A stretch of 25,887 nt of DNA from a bacterium (GTDB taxonomy: Bacteria; ARS69): contig JALGZR010000055.1 in NCBI GenBank assembly GCA_025774805.1, positions 1-25,887 on the forward strand, given 5' to 3'. The position numbers and the translations under genes were made by a program. The notes under the pieces were generated by a model. That model had not been told where the DNA came from. It worked only from the letters and a program-made list of their open reading frames with translations, and made no database searches. Every line of letters begins with the position of its first letter. The first letter of the stretch is position 1. Below are positions 17,053 through 25,887 of this stretch, one piece after another.

Positions 17053-17189
17053 TCAGACAGCGGCAGAGCATCGTTCGTACCGCGCCAGTCTTAGCCAGCA
17101 GATCGTCGCCAGTTTCCGAGCCACAGCGACTCGGGCGATCTTTGCACTCGAACGCTTCCGGATTCGCTCGTAGAAGCGGCGTAACTTAG

Positions 17190-17212
17190 CCTCGATCCGT
17201 CAGAAAATCTCG
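17190..17212 (+). repeat. Left terminal inverted repeat of the MITE-like element
   Basis: 23 bp, perfectly complementary to 17354-17376, preceded by target-site copy TTAG. Confidence 0.92.
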
Positions 17213-17353
17213 AGGGAAAACGCACGAGAGCGCGCCAGCCGGGGTCGCGCGCAGCCCGAGCCAAGCGGAGCTTATCCCACGATAAGTGAGTATTGGCGAG
17301 GGCGAGCACGGCCGCGGATGGCATGCTATCGTGCGAGCGCCAGCGCTTTTCGC

Positions 17354-17376
17354 CGAGATTTTCTGACGGATCGAGG
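17354..17376 (-). repeat. Right terminal inverted repeat of the MITE-like element
   Basis: 23 bp, perfectly complementary to 17190-17212, followed by target-site copy TTAG. Confidence 0.92.
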
Positions 17377-18330
17377 TTAGCGTCCCGGCGCACCGCTTGG
17401 ATCGCGACCTGGACGAGAATCCACCGCAGCCATCCGGACCCTTGTCGAGTGATGTGGCCATAGTGGCAACTGTTCCCCGACTGGCTGACTCTCGCAGTGA
17501 GACCAGCGTATGCCCCGACCTGGCGCCCGTTCCGAAAACGGCCAGGTTCGGCGACCTCACCGACGATCAACAATGCTGAGTACAGTCCAATCCCGTGGAT
17601 GTCTGTGAGTGCTTCGACCTGCGGAAACGAGTCCTCGAGCTCCGCCAGTCGCTGGTCATACCGCCCAACGGCGCTCTCAAAGTGATCAAGCCGGTCCAGC
17701 AGCTCGTCACGGGACACGTTACCGGACCAGCCAAGGTCAACTCCGGCGATCCATCGCCGTCCGCTCTTGCAGAATATGTTCACGTACGGGACCTGAATGT
17801 TTGAGCGGGCGAGGACGGCGTGCAGCTCATTCTTTGCCCTCACCATCAGACGAACCAGACGCGCCCGAGCTCGAGTGAGATCCCGAAGATCAGAGTACGG
17901 TCTGGCTGGGATGTGGGCCGAGGGTATCAGGTTCGCTCGGAGAAGCCGGGCGAGTAGTGCTGCATCGAGCTTGTCAGTCTTTGCACGACCAGCCACAATG
18001 GCGCGGAGTCGATAGGGATGCGCAAGCGTGACCTCGCCCCACGGTGACAGGAGTTCGTAGAGCCAGCGATAGCTCGATGAAGCCTCGATCACGCAGCGGA
18101 ACGGCCGAAGGGCCTTGAAGAACCCTACGATACGATCCGTCTCGTGGCAGCCCATCCGAACGGGACGATCAACGGGACCTTCATCATCTTCGATACTGAC
18201 GACCAGAAACCGCTTGTGGAGATCAATGCCTGCGTAGTGCACTTGATACCTCCTGTCGTGAGAGGACAACCGCCAGCGGCCAATGTGCCTCGACGGTAGC
18301 ACCTCGGTCAGGAGGCTTGATTCCACGCGG

Positions 18331-19904: not shown

Positions 19905-20608
19905 GTTTTCGGGAAGGACAGGCTCATCGAAGAGGCGGAAGGCGGCACGGTGTTTTTCGATGAAGTTGGGGAGATGGGCGAAGAGCTACAGGTCAGCTTC
20001 TTCGGTTGCTGGAGAATGGCGAATACCGCCGCCTCGGTGAGAACAACGTCAAGATCGCCGGCGTGCGCGTCATTTCGGCGACGAACCGCGAACTCTCCAC
20101 CCAGGTAGAGCGCGGCAACTTCCGCCAGGATCTCTACTATAGACTCGGCACCGTAAAGCTGCACATCCCCGCCCTTCGTTTCCGTCAGGGCGACATCCAG
20201 CTCTTGATCCGTCACTTCCTCAGGGAGTGCGCGGCGCGAAACGGCCTCCACGACCGGCACTTCGAAATCGACGTCAAGGCCGTCGAAGCACTCGAGCTCT
20301 ACGATTGGCCGGGCAAGGTTCGCGAGCTTCACAACGAGTTCATGCGCATCGTCTCACTGATCGGACCATCCGACGTGATCCGTTTCGGGATGCTGTCAGA
20401 GCCCGTCAAGAGCAAACGCAAGTCGAGAAAGAGCGGCGGCAAGCTGCTGGAACGAAGCGTCCAGCAGTACGAGCGTCGTCTCATCCTCGACGCCCTCCAC
20501 CGCAACGACTGGAATCGCGTGCGCACCTCCGAAGAGATCGGGGTTCCCCGCACCACGCTCATCACCAAGATGAGAAAGCTCAAGATTGCCGCGCGCGAAC
20601 AGCTCTGA
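19905..20608 (+). pseudogene. Truncated, frameshifted sigma-54-dependent (NtrC-type) activator
   Basis: The remnant starts inside the AAA+ domain: DRLIEEAEGGTVFFDEVGEM (Walker B region), EELQV, then a one-base loss near 19995 (AAG reduced to AG). In the next frame LLRLLENGEYRRLGE, ISATNRELSTQVERGNFRQD, LYYRLGTVKLHIPALR and DWPGKVRELHNEFMR follow. A Fis-type helix-turn-helix (RTSEEIGVPRTTLITKMRKL) closes the protein. The sensory domain, Walker A and GAFTGA loop are absent upstream. It cannot make a working activator. An ORF from 20006 could give a ~200-residue C-terminal piece, probably not meaningful. Confidence 0.88.
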
Positions 20609-20900: not shown

Positions 20901-21845
20901 ATGCGGGATCTACGGATATCCCTCTTTGGTAACGTGCGTGTCGGCTTCGGCGACACGCCCCAGAAAAGACTCACGAGGGTGGTCAAGGGACTGCTGGCCT
21001 ACCTCGTCCTCTATCGCGAGCGCAGTCACTCGCGCGAAGTGCTGTCCAACCTGTTCTGGGGAGAGTACACGGAGCAGAGCGCCCGAAGCTGCCTCAACAC
21101 CACCCTGTGGCGCCTGCGCGGCATTCTCGAACCTGGCAGGATCAATAAGGGAACCTACCTCGTTTCCGCCGCCGATGGCGACGTCGCCTTCAACCGCGAC
21201 AGCAAATACTGGCTCGACGTCGAGGAGTTCGACACGACGGTGGGCCGTTGCATGGTCCCGCGCGTCGCCGACCTGAAACCCAGCCAGGCCAAATCGCTCG
21301 AGAAAGGTCTGAAGCTCTACGTGGCGGAGCTGATGGAAGGCTGCTACGACGACTGGGCGGTGGGCGAGCGCGATCGCCTGCGCAACAAGTACCTCCAGGG
21401 CCTGGAGCGCCTGATGGAGTACCACGACCTGCGAAAATCTTACGAAGAGGCCGTCACCTTCGGCCAACAGATCCTCTATCACGATCCGCTGCGCGAAGAC
21501 GTACACCGCGACGTCATGCGCCTGTTCGCCCAGAGCGGCCAGCGAACGCGAGCCATCCGCCACTTCGAGAAGTGCTGCGACCTGTTGGACAAGGAACTCG
21601 GCGTCGCGCCCGCCGGGGAGACGAGGGCGCTGTATGAGCGCATCCTCCAGCTCGCCGACGGCCACGTCATCACTGCGTCGCCCGAGAGTGCGTCTTCCTC
21701 TACGCTGGAAGCATCCACGCTCAACGAGTTGACGACCTCCGTCCGCCACGCCATCGACGACTGCGACGCCGTCCGGCGCCGTCTCTCCCAGCTTGAGGAC
21801 CTCCTCCGCAAGCTCGGAGCGCCAGACTCGTCCGCCAACGAGTAG
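20901..21845 (+). CDS. SARP-like transcriptional activator (OmpR-type winged helix plus BTAD domain)
   Basis: A 314-residue cytoplasmic regulator. The N-terminal winged-helix part (about 4-95) has ISLFGNVRV, VVKGLLAYLVLYRERSHSRE, LFWGEYTEQSARSCLNTTLW and LRGILEP, the arrangement of SARP/AfsR-type activators. The bacterial transcriptional activation (BTAD) domain (about 105-255) shows DVEEFD, YVAELMEGCYDDWAVGERDR, YEEAVTFGQQILYHDPLRED, VHRDVMRLFAQSGQRTRAIR and LGVAPAGETRALYERI, i.e. TPR-like helices. A short coiled coil (VRRRLSQLEDLLRKL) ends the protein. The ATG follows GGGGAG. Forty-five bases after its stop begins an array of 11-bp-spaced heptamers in front of the protease operon, the expected kind of target for this family, so it probably activates the downstream genes. 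Confidence 0.9.
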   Translation: MRDLRISLFGNVRVGFGDTPQKRLTRVVKGLLAYLVLYRERSHSREVLSNLFWGEYTEQSARSCLNTTLWRLRGILEPGRINKGTYLVSAADGDVAFNRDSKYWLDVEEFDTTVGRCMVPRVADLKPSQAKSLEKGLKLYVAELMEGCYDDWAVGERDRLRNKYLQGLERLMEYHDLRKSYEEAVTFGQQILYHDPLREDVHRDVMRLFAQSGQRTRAIRHFEKCCDLLDKELGVAPAGETRALYERILQLADGHVITASPESASSSTLEASTLNELTTSVRHAIDDCDAVRRRLSQLEDLLRKLGAPDSSANE

Positions 21846-21890: not shown

Positions 21891-21930
21891 GTGACCGCGA
21901 CGTGACCCGCAAGTGAGCGGCGCGTGAGTC
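21891..21930 (+). promoter_or_regulatory. SARP-type operator: four GTGA heptamers at exact 11-bp spacing
   Basis: GTGACCG (21891), GTGACCC (21902), GTGAGCG (21913) and GTGAGTC (21924) are direct repeats with 4-bp spacers, so their starts are exactly 11 bp apart. SARP activators are known to bind heptameric direct repeats with this period, covering one face of the helix and overlapping the -35 region. No -35 box is visible here, as expected for such promoters. Confidence 0.75.
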
Positions 21931-21938
21931 CCCGTGTG

Positions 21939-21944
21939 TACACT
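21939..21944 (+). promoter_or_regulatory. Candidate -10 element of the protease operon
   Basis: TACACT matches the -10 consensus at four of six positions and begins exactly 8 bp after the last heptamer, the spacing reported for SARP-dependent promoters. A transcript would start near 21951, leaving about 48 nt before the ATG at 21999. The overlapping palindrome GTGTACAC (21936-21943) is an alternative reading. Confidence 0.55.
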
Positions 21945-21998
21945 CCCCGCGTCACATTGGCGAAGCGCGTCCAGGTGTATCAATCCGGGTCACTATTC

Positions 21999-23300
21999 AT
22001 GAGGCCACATTTCACAGTCGCTTTGAGAGAAGGGGTCGCCACGACGTCCGAACCCTCGTCGTGGATCGACCAGGCCAGAGGCGCGGCGCCATCCACCGAC
22101 ACGCTCCACTCCGACGTCGACGACCGGCTCAAACACGCCGGCATCCCCGTGAAGGTCGCGCGCGAGTACACACCCGCCAACGGCCGCGAGTGGGACGCCG
22201 ACGAGCGTGCCTCGGGGATGAACCGCGTGTTCCGCATGGTTTTGCACCGGAGCACGACGATGCCCGACGACCTGATCGAGTCCGTTCGCCTGATTCCGGC
22301 GGTCGAGCAGGCGATCCCCGGCGCGATCGGGATGGCGCCCATGCCGGCGCCGTCTTCACGGCGCCTGGGCCGCACGCCCGGGAAGGACGCGCGCAAAGTC
22401 GTCTACCTGCCCGAAGCACACGCGAGAGCCCGTGGCGACAATGCCATCGCGATCGCCGTCCTCGACACGGGCGTCAGCATGGAGCACCCGGAGTACCAGC
22501 ATCAGCTCGGCGAGGGGTTTGACTTCGTCGACATCATCGACGGCGCCGGCCGCTTCGTGGGCGATTTCGTGGGCGCCGACCCCGATCCCACCGATCAGGT
22601 TGGTCACGGATCGCACGTGGCGGGCGTGATCGCCGCCCGTGGGGGAAAGATGCCGCCCGGCGTCGTGCCGGAGTGCCGGATTCTCCCGGTTCGGGTTCTG
22701 GGAGCGATGCGCCAGGGCAACCGCAGAATCGGCGCCGGCCTGGTGGACAACATCAACGCGGGTATCAAATGGGCGGTCGACAAGGGCGCCGACGTGATCA
22801 ACATGAGCCTGGGCGTTCGTCACATGGGCCGCGGCGGGCTGCCGCACGAGCGCGTGATCGACTACGCGAAGCGCAAAGGCGTGACCATCGTGGCCGCGTC
22901 GGGCAACGACGGCACCACGGAAATCTACTATCCCGGTGGACATCCTTACGTGATCACGGTGGGCGCTGCCGACACGACCGGCCGCGTGGCGCAGTTCTCG
23001 ACCTATGGCGATCACGTCGATCTGATCGCGCCGGGAACCGACATTTACAGCACGTCGCTCGGCGACCGCTACGCCTTTCTGAGCGGGACTTCTTCGGCTT
23101 CGCCGTTTGTGGCGGGAGCGGCGGCGCTCCTCAAATCATACGCACACGAAAAGGGCCGGAGCCTGAGCGACGGTCAAGTGAAACACGTTCTGAAACACAG
23201 TGCAGACAAGATCGGGACACGATTCAAGAGCCGCAAGGCGGGCTATGGCATGCTGAATTTGGCCGACGCCCTGCAACTGCTCGAGCACAAACTCAATTGA
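21999..23300 (+). CDS. Subtilisin-like serine peptidase (S8), without signal peptide
   Basis: A 433-residue peptidase. The N-terminal ~145 residues (FTVALREGV, VFRMVLHRSTTMPDDLIESV) look like an inhibitor-type prodomain or a partner-binding domain. The S8 domain has a complete catalytic set: D156 (IAVLDTGVS), H203 (GHGSHVAG), oxyanion N303 (AASGNDG) and S365 (SGTSSASPF). No signal peptide or membrane segment is seen, so it should act inside the cell or be released by another route. The frame extends to a GTG at 21924, but that codon lies within the operator array and upstream of the predicted transcript start, so the ATG at 21999 is preferred despite a weak ribosome site. The next gene starts 13 bp downstream. 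Confidence 0.92.
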   Translation: MRPHFTVALREGVATTSEPSSWIDQARGAAPSTDTLHSDVDDRLKHAGIPVKVAREYTPANGREWDADERASGMNRVFRMVLHRSTTMPDDLIESVRLIPAVEQAIPGAIGMAPMPAPSSRRLGRTPGKDARKVVYLPEAHARARGDNAIAIAVLDTGVSMEHPEYQHQLGEGFDFVDIIDGAGRFVGDFVGADPDPTDQVGHGSHVAGVIAARGGKMPPGVVPECRILPVRVLGAMRQGNRRIGAGLVDNINAGIKWAVDKGADVINMSLGVRHMGRGGLPHERVIDYAKRKGVTIVAASGNDGTTEIYYPGGHPYVITVGAADTTGRVAQFSTYGDHVDLIAPGTDIYSTSLGDRYAFLSGTSSASPFVAGAAALLKSYAHEKGRSLSDGQVKHVLKHSADKIGTRFKSRKAGYGMLNLADALQLLEHKLN

Positions 23301-23313
23301 GGAGGACCAGAAA

Positions 23314-23871
23314 ATGAGTGTGGCCAAGCGCAGCGTACAGGAGCATTTGAACATCCGGAGGCCGAGCGGTCGAATCGACCCCGTGATCGCCAAGGCCTTG
23401 AAATCACTCGAGGAGAAGAAGATCAAAAAATGGGCCGACGAAGTTCCCAGCGAGCGCGGAAGGACACTCCCGGATTCCAAGAGGAAGCTCGAAGAGTCCC
23501 TCACGACGTGGGCCGGTACATTGCGAACCGCTACGCGCAGGCTTCGCAGGGAGGCGGCGTCGGACGTGGAACGTCTCCTCACGGCCAACCCGGCCCTCTA
23601 TGCTCTGACGCTCCGGCGTGCGGTGGACAACTACGAGGCGGCAACGGCGACCGGGTTGTCCGGAGTCGACTCGCAGACACTGAGAAACGAGCTCGCCGCC
23701 ATCAAAGACGATTTGAAGAAGCGGGCGGCCGAGTTCAGGAGACGGGACAGCGAGCTCAAGAAGAGTGACACCGCGCTCAGTAAGAAGTTGGAGAGAGTGA
23801 ACAAGCTACTCCAGGACTTGAAGAAATCCACCCCGAGAAGCAAGCCACGAAGCCCCAGAACGAAAAGGTAA
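23314..23871 (+). CDS. Basic coiled-coil protein of unknown function
   Basis: A 185-residue, strongly helical and basic protein. The middle contains LESLTTWAGTLRTATRRLRRE-like helices (ESLTTWAGTLRTATRRLRR), and residues about 120-170 form a heptad-rich coiled coil (LRNELAAIKDDLKKRAAEF, LKKSDTALSKKLERVNKLLQ). The tail is Ser-Pro-Arg-Lys rich (KSTPRSKPRSPRTKR). No signal peptide or known domain is seen. GAGGAGG stands upstream of the ATG. It is 13 bp after the protease gene and 16 bp before the next, so it shares their transcript. It could be a structural or adaptor partner, or a substrate of the protease; nothing in sequence decides. Confidence 0.85.
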   Translation: MSVAKRSVQEHLNIRRPSGRIDPVIAKALKSLEEKKIKKWADEVPSERGRTLPDSKRKLEESLTTWAGTLRTATRRLRREAASDVERLLTANPALYALTLRRAVDNYEAATATGLSGVDSQTLRNELAAIKDDLKKRAAEFRRRDSELKKSDTALSKKLERVNKLLQDLKKSTPRSKPRSPRTKR

Positions 23872-23887
23872 AGGGTAAGGAATAGCC

Positions 23888-25309
23888 ATGAGTACTACGA
23901 CCCCCGATGTAGTTGAGATTCTAGGTCAGGCGAAGCTCCAGCTAAACCCGACCGACGGCTTGCTTCACGACTTCGCTGACGAGGTCATCGACAAGGCGGT
24001 CGAGGCGTACGGCCTGGACGCCGATGCGGTTGACAAAAACGACGCCTCCGCCGTGAAGTTTCGCGAGCGGCTCATCTACAAAATGCTCTCGCGCACCTTT
24101 CCGCTGGACAAGTTCAAGGATTTCTTTATGGGAATCTGGAACGAGGCCATGCGCGAGGGCGACATCCCGGCATGGATCGACCTGTTCGATAGCACGAGCG
24201 AGGTTGGCGAGGACAAGCTCACGCCGGCCGTTCGTGACAAGATGGCTGCGTTCCTTCTGGATCGCGGCATCACGCTGCCGAAGGCGCCCGCCAACACCGG
24301 CCGCGTAGCGTACAGAAAGTACCAGGAACACCTGGCCGACGCGTATCACCACGCGATCGACGCCACGGGCCGAGGCGACGATCCGGTTGACGCCGCCAAG
24401 GCCGGACAGTCGGTTTCCACCTGGGACTTTTCGGTCGATACCTCCGAAGACCTTGATAACCAGGAAGTGATCGTTGACAACGTCAAGGCGGCGGGCGCGC
24501 TCTACTATCTCTACAACCTGTGCGAGCGCATGGGCATGCTGAAGGTGGTCGATTCGCTGGTGCTCAACTGGGCCGCGGGCGCAATCGACGTCGTCGACGG
24601 CCCCGGCGCCGACAAGCTGTATCGATACTGGAAGATGCGCGACGAACGCCTCGCCGAGGAAGAGCGCGCCATCGTCTATCGCCGGGTACTCAACCTCGGA
24701 GGCGGAGAGGTTCTTTCGCGCATGACGGTGAACGAGTACTTTCCCGAGCTGTGGAACAAGCTCATGACAGAGGTTGCCGACTACATCGCCAAGGTTGAGA
24801 AGGCGCAGACCTCGGACGATGTGCCACTGGTATCGCGCAAGCCCATCGAGCTGGCCGCGCGCGAGCTTCAGTACAATCTGACCGAGTACGCGACCGGAAT
24901 GGTGCACATGCAGACGCGCGAGATCCATTCGATCTACCGGGAGGCCGTCGAAATACTTAGAGACGATCAGGTGCTCTCGCACTTCGGCGGTCGCGGACGA
25001 AAGAACATGTGGAAAGTCATCGAGAGGGTGTCCAAGCAAGAGCTGTCCCACGCGCCCAACGTCACCAGCGTCCGTACCCTGGCCGTCGACGGCTACAAGG
25101 TCTTCCAGTGGCTCGTGGACGCCAATACCGAGGACGAAGCGGGCTTCCAGGACTTCTTGCGCTCCGCCGAGGCGTGGATCATCGCCGCGGGCACGGACGA
25201 GGAAGAAGCGGGCGCGCGTGAGCCCGACGACGAGGATGAATTCGAAGGCTCCGATGACGACGATCTCTTCGAAACAGAAGACGAAGAATTCGCCGAGCTC
25301 AACGCCTGA
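23888..25309 (+). CDS. Uncharacterised 473-residue mainly helical protein with acidic tail
   Basis: A soluble protein with no signal peptide, no transmembrane helix and no domain I can name. Visible features are a helical N-terminal half (GLLHDFADEVIDKAVEAYGL, FRERLIYKMLSRTF, FKDFFMGIWNEAMREGD) and a central part with LYYLYNLCERMGMLKVVDSL. A C-terminal helical region follows (IELAARELQYNLTEYATGMV, WKVIERVSKQEL, VFQWLVDANTEDEAGFQDFL). The last ~40 residues are highly acidic (DDEDEFEGSDDDDLFETEDEE). The preceding gene is basic, so the two may bind through opposite charge. It is third in the SARP-controlled operon, 16 bp after the coiled-coil gene, with AAGG-type spacing before the ATG. Confidence 0.85.
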   Translation: MSTTTPDVVEILGQAKLQLNPTDGLLHDFADEVIDKAVEAYGLDADAVDKNDASAVKFRERLIYKMLSRTFPLDKFKDFFMGIWNEAMREGDIPAWIDLFDSTSEVGEDKLTPAVRDKMAAFLLDRGITLPKAPANTGRVAYRKYQEHLADAYHHAIDATGRGDDPVDAAKAGQSVSTWDFSVDTSEDLDNQEVIVDNVKAAGALYYLYNLCERMGMLKVVDSLVLNWAAGAIDVVDGPGADKLYRYWKMRDERLAEEERAIVYRRVLNLGGGEVLSRMTVNEYFPELWNKLMTEVADYIAKVEKAQTSDDVPLVSRKPIELAARELQYNLTEYATGMVHMQTREIHSIYREAVEILRDDQVLSHFGGRGRKNMWKVIERVSKQELSHAPNVTSVRTLAVDGYKVFQWLVDANTEDEAGFQDFLRSAEAWIIAAGTDEEEAGAREPDDEDEFEGSDDDDLFETEDEEFAELNA

Positions 25310-25351
25310 TCGACCGTCGCCTCGTGTGATTAGAACTGAAGGGAATTCGAC

Positions 25352-25887
25352 ATGCCAGATGATAGCTCCCTGATGACGACGGCACGCCTGAGGGCGCAGG
25401 AGCAACTCAGCAAATCATCGCAGTTCAAGGCGATGTCCCACGCCGAACAACTCGAGACGTACGGGAACACCGTCCGCGACGAGCTCGACCAGCTCCGCGC
25501 GATGGCGTTGGGGCAAGGGCTGCTTGCGACCGGAATGGCGCCATTCGGGCAGGTGCGCGCCGGCGACCTCATTGACGACTCAAAGCACGGCAGCAAGCGC
25601 ATCGAGCAGGCCGGTGAGCTCGCCGGAGAGTTCGTACAGGAAGTCGACTTCCCCGGCTTCGTCGCCGATTTGCTCAAGGCGGTGTTCGACGCCAATCTCG
25701 AGGTAACTTTAAAGCAGATGGAGACTTACAAGGATCTGCTGAAAGCGGCATCCGAGTCTGTCTCGAAGTTCGTGAGAGAGATCGACAACACCGCCGCATT
25801 CGGATACCTCGCCGAAAAGCAAGGCGACGAGTTTACGTTGTCGTTCGACGACGACGAGAAGGATGACGATGGCCAGCCCGCCGCCCA
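25352..25887 (+). CDS. Uncharacterised helical protein, 3' partial
   Basis: The frame begins at an ATG preceded by AAGGGA (seven-base spacing) and is still open at the window end, giving 178 residues. It is helical and polar: LRAQEQLSKSSQFKAMSHAE, ELDQLRAMALGQGLLATGM, then VDFPGFVADLLKAVFDANLE and VTLKQMETYKDLLKAASESV. An acidic patch follows (LSFDDDEKDDDG). The FPxFVxxLL...QMExYxxLL pattern reminds me of uncharacterised bacterial proteins, but I cannot name a family. It starts 42 bp after the previous gene and is probably in the same operon. Confidence 0.8.
   Translation, partial: MPDDSSLMTTARLRAQEQLSKSSQFKAMSHAEQLETYGNTVRDELDQLRAMALGQGLLATGMAPFGQVRAGDLIDDSKHGSKRIEQAGELAGEFVQEVDFPGFVADLLKAVFDANLEVTLKQMETYKDLLKAASESVSKFVREIDNTAAFGYLAEKQGDEFTLSFDDDEKDDDGQPAA

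Follow-up and report, generated by a model that had tools for sequence, protein, structure and literature searches.

The window, by which we mean the whole 25,887-nucleotide stretch of DNA that was analysed, encodes a small SARP-type activator (20901–21845) that, judging from the sequence, very likely activates the adjoining S8-peptidase operon by an AfsR-type mechanism. The switch would be of the type known from the antibiotic genes of Streptomyces, an activator together with evenly spaced repeats before a weak promoter, placed here in an unrelated bacterium. A sequence-only reading had proposed a SARP operator and promoter at this locus, and our analysis supports that proposal, with the binding and the start site as predictions and with a heptamer that is not the canonical one of Streptomyces.

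The regulator

20901–21845, + strand: small SARP-type activator gene, 314 aa (Pfam BTAD; structure matches to AfsR and EmbR)
21213–21647, + strand: BTAD of the SARP (81.4 bits in one scan; 79.5 bits, cut-off 22.1, in another; Pfam BTAD 4.4e-22)

The protein consists of an N-terminal OmpR-type DNA-binding domain, the BTAD and a C-terminal extension of approximately 60 aa. Of the natural proteins with a solved structure, it matched AfsR (8k60, 8jke and 8hvr, at 1e-10) and EmbR (2fez, 4e-5) best, and its N-terminus aligns with the DNA-binding domains of both in these structures, as expected of an OmpR-type winged helix; the Pfam Trans_reg_C match was weak (E 0.0016, under the cut-off). Together with a BTAD score far above its cut-off, these matches bear out the earlier description of the product as a winged-helix plus BTAD protein. 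The alignment to AfsR is ungapped through the recognition helix and places T67 and R71 of the window SARP at AfsR T88 and R92, which are reported as base-contacting residues (PMC10936776). The full-length cut-off of the NCBIfam AfsR model NF053617 was not reached (59.4 bits vs 1430), and the NOD and TPR domains are absent. In lacking any recognised sensor or ATPase domain, the 20901–21845 protein resembles the small SARPs. A single-sequence structure model of the SARP was discarded (pLDDT 42).

The putative operator array

21891–21897, + strand: operator heptamer 1, GTGACCG, 11-bp repeat
21902–21908, + strand: operator heptamer 2, GTGACCC, 11-bp repeat
21913–21919, + strand: operator heptamer 3, GTGAGCG, 11-bp repeat
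21924–21930, + strand: operator heptamer 4, GTGAGTC, 11-bp repeat

All four of the GTGA-core heptamers that had been claimed at an 11-bp period were found in place, with GTGA starting at 21891, 21902, 21913 and 21924, a period of exactly 11 bp, and the consensus of the array is GTGAsCs. GTGA is the only 4-mer in the whole window that occurs four times at 11 bp. The probability that chance yields a four-fold 11-bp array of a 4-mer is about 0.005 anywhere in the window and less than 5e-5 in the 153-bp intergenic region; for the latter it rises to 0.002 if any period from 5 to 34 is allowed. Across the genome, four-fold 11-bp arrays built from any 4-mer should turn up approximately once per 2 Mb, which speaks for a chance repeat in a GC-rich intergenic region and means that much of the weight rests on the adjacency of the SARP gene and on the -10 element downstream. 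We nevertheless regard chance as exceedingly improbable, given the figure for the intergenic region, the further factor of about 0.01 added by the spacing to the -10 element, and the recurrence of the same arrangement at other SARP genes. In the 5.1-Mb genome, a run of three GTGA at 11 bp is found at one further site, and the pattern GTGA-N7-GTGA-N11-TAnnnT has a single site, the window array itself (0 in reversed-pattern controls).

The start of the S8 gene was placed at 21999 because its Tolypothrix homolog aligns from residue 1, and the array is therefore non-coding; a coding origin of the repeats was rejected for this reason and since 11 bp is no codon multiple. A CRP-like site was likewise rejected, TGTGA-N6-TCACA being absent.

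The predicted promoter and the proposed mechanism

21931–21938, + strand: 8-bp spacer CCCGTGTG, between the last heptamer and TACACT
21939–21944, + strand: -10 element TACACT, sole TAnnnT in the intergenic region
21951–21952, + strand: predicted transcription start, by geometry only (21951 from the -10 element, 21952 from the AfsR register)

The last heptamer ends at 21930 and the TACACT box begins at 21939, which confirms the claimed distance of 8 bp. TACACT is the only TAnnnT hexamer between 21846 and 21998, and the probability of finding one at a given offset by chance is about 0.01; its match to TATAAT is only 4/6, which counts against the proposed promoter. A -35 element had been said to be missing, and a consensus scan of the intergenic region indeed found no sigma-70 -35/-10 pair, the best of the -35 slots of the TACACT promoter matching TTGACA at 2/6. 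In published SARP sites, heptamers lie 11 bp apart, the 3' repeat is 8 bp before the -10 element and the 5' repeat covers the -35 region (PMC4393881, PMC7040171). The window has heptameric repeats at 11 bp, a 3' repeat 8 bp before the -10 element, repeats over the -35 slot and no working -35, so that the likeness to the layout of Actinobacteria that had been pointed out holds.

On DNA, AfsR molecules lie next to one another on 11-bp units whose centre is at -29.5, and they hold sigma region 4, thereby replacing the -35 contact (PMC10936776). With the T of the final GTGA placed at position -27, which AfsR contacts, transcription would begin at 21952, just 1 bp from the 21951 derived from TACACT; we infer a transcription start at 21951–21952. 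In the mechanism that we propose, SARP protomers would occupy the four repeats at 21891–21930 head-to-tail, with a single protomer on each 11-bp unit, the bound activator would sit over the missing -35 element and hold sigma region 4, transcription would start from TACACT at about 21951, and the S8-peptidase operon (21999 to beyond 25887) would be switched on. Here we infer SARP binding, the oligomer, the sigma contact, the direction of regulation and the extent of the operon.

Read on the minus strand, the array could be a box for another OmpR/PhoB-type response regulator, which we consider very unlikely. The minus-strand units (GGTCAC, GGGTCAC, GCTCAC and ACTCAC) do have the kTCAC form of Pho boxes, PhoB-type regulators likewise use 11-bp direct repeats, and in Streptomyces the boxes of AfsR and PhoP overlap, with a TCA core common to both. 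However, such units would be oriented away from the S8 promoter and would turn the 8-bp distance to the -10 element on the plus strand into a coincidence; moreover, the immediate neighbour is the SARP gene, and equivalent arrays elsewhere follow SARP genes and not other genes.

Direct repeats serve many DNA-binding proteins, and the repeats could be real while belonging to another protein or purpose, such as an iteron, an RHH repressor, or control by the 8-bp palindrome GTGTACAC at 21936, which is exact. This we judge highly improbable: nothing near the array was recognised as a replication or partition gene, and the palindrome overlaps the -10 element and the spacer, whereas related SARP promoters have similar, non-palindromic spacers. 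Two of these, TTCGTGTGG and CTTGTGTGC, resemble the window spacer.

The predicted target operon and its neighbourhood

21999–23300, + strand: predicted target 1, subtilase (S8) (Pfam Peptidase_S8 3.6e-51; intact D/H/S motifs)
23314–23871, + strand: predicted target 2, 185-aa coiled-coil-like protein (partial likeness to the N-terminal part of a 615-aa Tolypothrix protein)
23888–25309, + strand: predicted target 3, 473-aa protein of unknown family (41% identity to a Tolypothrix plasmid protein)
25352–25887, + strand: predicted target 4, uncharacterised protein of at least 178 aa, cut by the contig end (39% identity to a Tolypothrix neighbour gene)

The S8 protein is 54.6% identical over its full length to a Tolypothrix plasmid protein, and the 473-aa protein has remoter copies in Burkholderia and Paraburkholderia. 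Relatives of the S8, 473-aa and 178-aa proteins also form clusters on Tolypothrix plasmids and on pBPJTT of Burkholderia pyrrocinia, where the cluster comes after a sigma-54 activator and a large amidase/papain-like protein; no SARP gene is annotated beside the operon at the Tolypothrix or pBPJTT loci. Searches of Pfam, PHROGs and PADLOC gave no convincing match for the 473-aa and 178-aa-type families. This rare S8-peptidase operon was observed at 21999–25887 of the window and at two plasmid loci (L034 17198–27369; L033 8796–24536). The Burkholderia plasmid operon has duplicated copies, with an amidase plus papain-like protein, a cyclase-AAA-TPR protein and a patatin nearby.

Directly upstream of the SARP gene lies the remnant of a sigma-54 enhancer-binding activator (19915–20608), which keeps the part from Walker B onward only; its N-terminal half is gone and there is a frame change near 20000, with the decayed activator itself placed at 20006–20608. 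The remnant is 29% identical to the intact pBPJTT activator of the same class. A decayed sigma-54 activator beside the SARP gene and an intact one at the Burkholderia operon suggest a change of regulator, and our guess, which rests on two loci, is that control of the operon passed from a sigma-54 activator to the SARP. An IS110-family transposase gene (17091–18326, minus strand) is found near the remnant. The setting is not that of an antibiotic-cluster SARP, the neighbours being the S8 peptidase, uncharacterised proteins, the sigma-54 activator remnant and the IS110 transposase. No contractile injection genes were recognised in the window, whose contig ends at 25887.

Recurrence of the arrangement after other SARP genes

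Searches for the window SARP in the four other genomes of its family, and for an ortholog in genome and viral contigs, came back empty, as did those for the 473-aa neighbour in 386 sampled genomes, in a scan of genome contigs and in phages. The closest SARP in plasmid records, from Rhizobium leguminosarum, is 34% identical, and its tested flanks lack an 11-bp array, which counts against the proposal. As no ortholog of the window locus was found, remoter SARP genes were tested for the same arrangement. The sample comprised 60 regions around BTAD matches from sampled genomes plus named plasmid loci, with 65 genes in total, the window excluded. The strict test called for two heptamers 11 bp apart within 160 bp past the SARP stop (first four bases identical and at least 6/7 equal), followed by 8 or 9 bp and then TAnnnT.

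Eleven of the 65 SARP genes passed, against a mean of 0.17 and a maximum of 3 in 300 runs of the Markov null, and the other periods from 7 to 20 gave 0 or 1 passes. In the controls, 0/47 passed upstream of SARP genes and 1/240 downstream of non-SARP genes. Because L115 and L116 are related to each other, as are L111 and L129, the carriers amount to approximately nine independent lineages; the remaining 54 of the 65 SARP genes fail the test, a point against the proposal, though they may act elsewhere. The operator rule was set after the data had been seen, and the window array passes only a relaxed form of the test. An earlier period-11 test of 31 flanking regions, in which promoter position was not used, was unconvincing.

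Across genera of the G133 phylum, GTAAGC units with TAAAAT are kept at orthologous SARP loci (G133, G388 and G270), and at a second SARP gene CTAAGAA units with TATACT are kept in G387, G388 and G270; G387 and G388 lie outside the sample that yielded the rule. In G313, three GTRACC units with a perfect TATAAT follow the SARP gene (L092 4945–5003), and two further promoters with GTAACCTATCTGTAACC occur elsewhere in that genome (C44 and C157).

Recognition helix and operator sequence

The window operator, spacer included, aligns with six arrays (one each in G309, G171, G313 and G247, and two in G024) as GTGACC-N5-GTGACTT-TTCGTGTG-TA. Those SARPs with the recognition-helix core TTxxRLR of the window SARP (G309, G171, G313 and G247) have a near-identical operator and spacer. 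The arrays of G171 and G247 and the second of G024 are 0.5–3 kb away from the SARP gene. One array of the G024 pair shares sequence with a predicted ORF, and the SARP linked to this pair is truncated by the start of the contig, which puts its helix out of view. Pairs of GTRAS units occur downstream of 5/11 SARPs with T and R at the contact positions (window included) vs 5/49 of the others (p 0.013), a difference that is merely suggestive once the window is left out. In the family of G024, G171 and G309, several GTGACC-N5-GTGACTT arrays with YGTGTG-like spacers were observed (L121 680, 2978 and 3764; L114 4816; L091 ~4877), and this family apparently has a small SARP regulon.

The host

The window was thought to derive from an FCB-type bacterium, and the FlgD_ig/Por_Secre_tail-type C-terminal sorting domain encoded at 2–706 fits that assignment. 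WhiB was absent from 15/15 genomes tested (among them all carriers of the array and the window host), with a Corynebacterium control positive, and because of this absence the carriers and the host are probably outside the Actinobacteria.

Relation to known SARP systems

The closest described counterpart is AfsR at the afsS promoter of Streptomyces coelicolor, which shares with the window a SARP domain, 11-bp direct repeats over a poor -35 slot, a weak -10 element, the aligned T and R contact residues, and heptamers that start with GT. Unlike the window SARP, AfsR has NOD and TPR domains, and its afsS operator has two repeats of GTT(T/C)A, whereas the window operator has four units with a GTGA core; the target also differs, that of the window being a peptidase operon. 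The small pathway-specific SARPs OtcR, Aur1PR4, FdmR1 and PapR2 are alike in size, domain order, 11-bp repeats and the 8 bp to the -10 element, and the PapR2 consensus GTCAGSS differs from the window GTGASCS by one or two bases. These regulators belong to antibiotic gene clusters of Actinobacteria, whereas the window SARP neighbours an S8-peptidase operon in a WhiB-less host.

HilA of Salmonella is a related non-actinobacterial case. The mechanism of the AfsR type is known; the host and the target are new. A SARP-family regulator has been characterised outside Actinobacteria in Geobacter sulfurreducens, namely GSU1771, which has a receiver domain, unlike the window SARP, and for which no mention of an 11-bp heptamer operator was found (PMC10599522). 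In Streptomyces, SARP operators have been studied in depth. No description of a SARP operator outside Actinobacteria was found in the open literature searched, which does not prove absence, and a general operator rule for such SARPs is apparently undescribed so far.

Taking the evidence jointly, we lean towards the view that SARP regulation is widespread and old beyond the Actinobacteria, in which the SARP gene would be followed within approximately 10–130 bp by its own operator (11-bp repeats of a GT heptamer, 8–9 bp, TAnnnT) and its target gene. The recognition helix would partly predict the heptamer, so that such pairs could be read from genomes at scale, and the window SARP may have displaced a sigma-54 activator. 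If true, regulator, operator and target could be read from single loci of uncultured bacteria and yield testable promoter predictions, natural regulator-operator pairs would be at hand for solving the DNA-recognition code of SARPs, and there would be an initial hint of how an uncharacterised S8-peptidase operon, elsewhere encountered on plasmids, is controlled.

BTAD has been reported as an eCIS-associated domain, and genes encoding it have been described in the vicinity of injection systems (PMC8213781). The best plasmid match of the window SARP, the small SARP of R. leguminosarum pRL23b7, differs from it in preceding tail-sheath and baseplate genes. On pRL23b7 (L030 6962–13790), this small SARP gene is followed by genes for tail sheath, tail-tube-like and baseplate proteins, and its product may control a contractile injection system.
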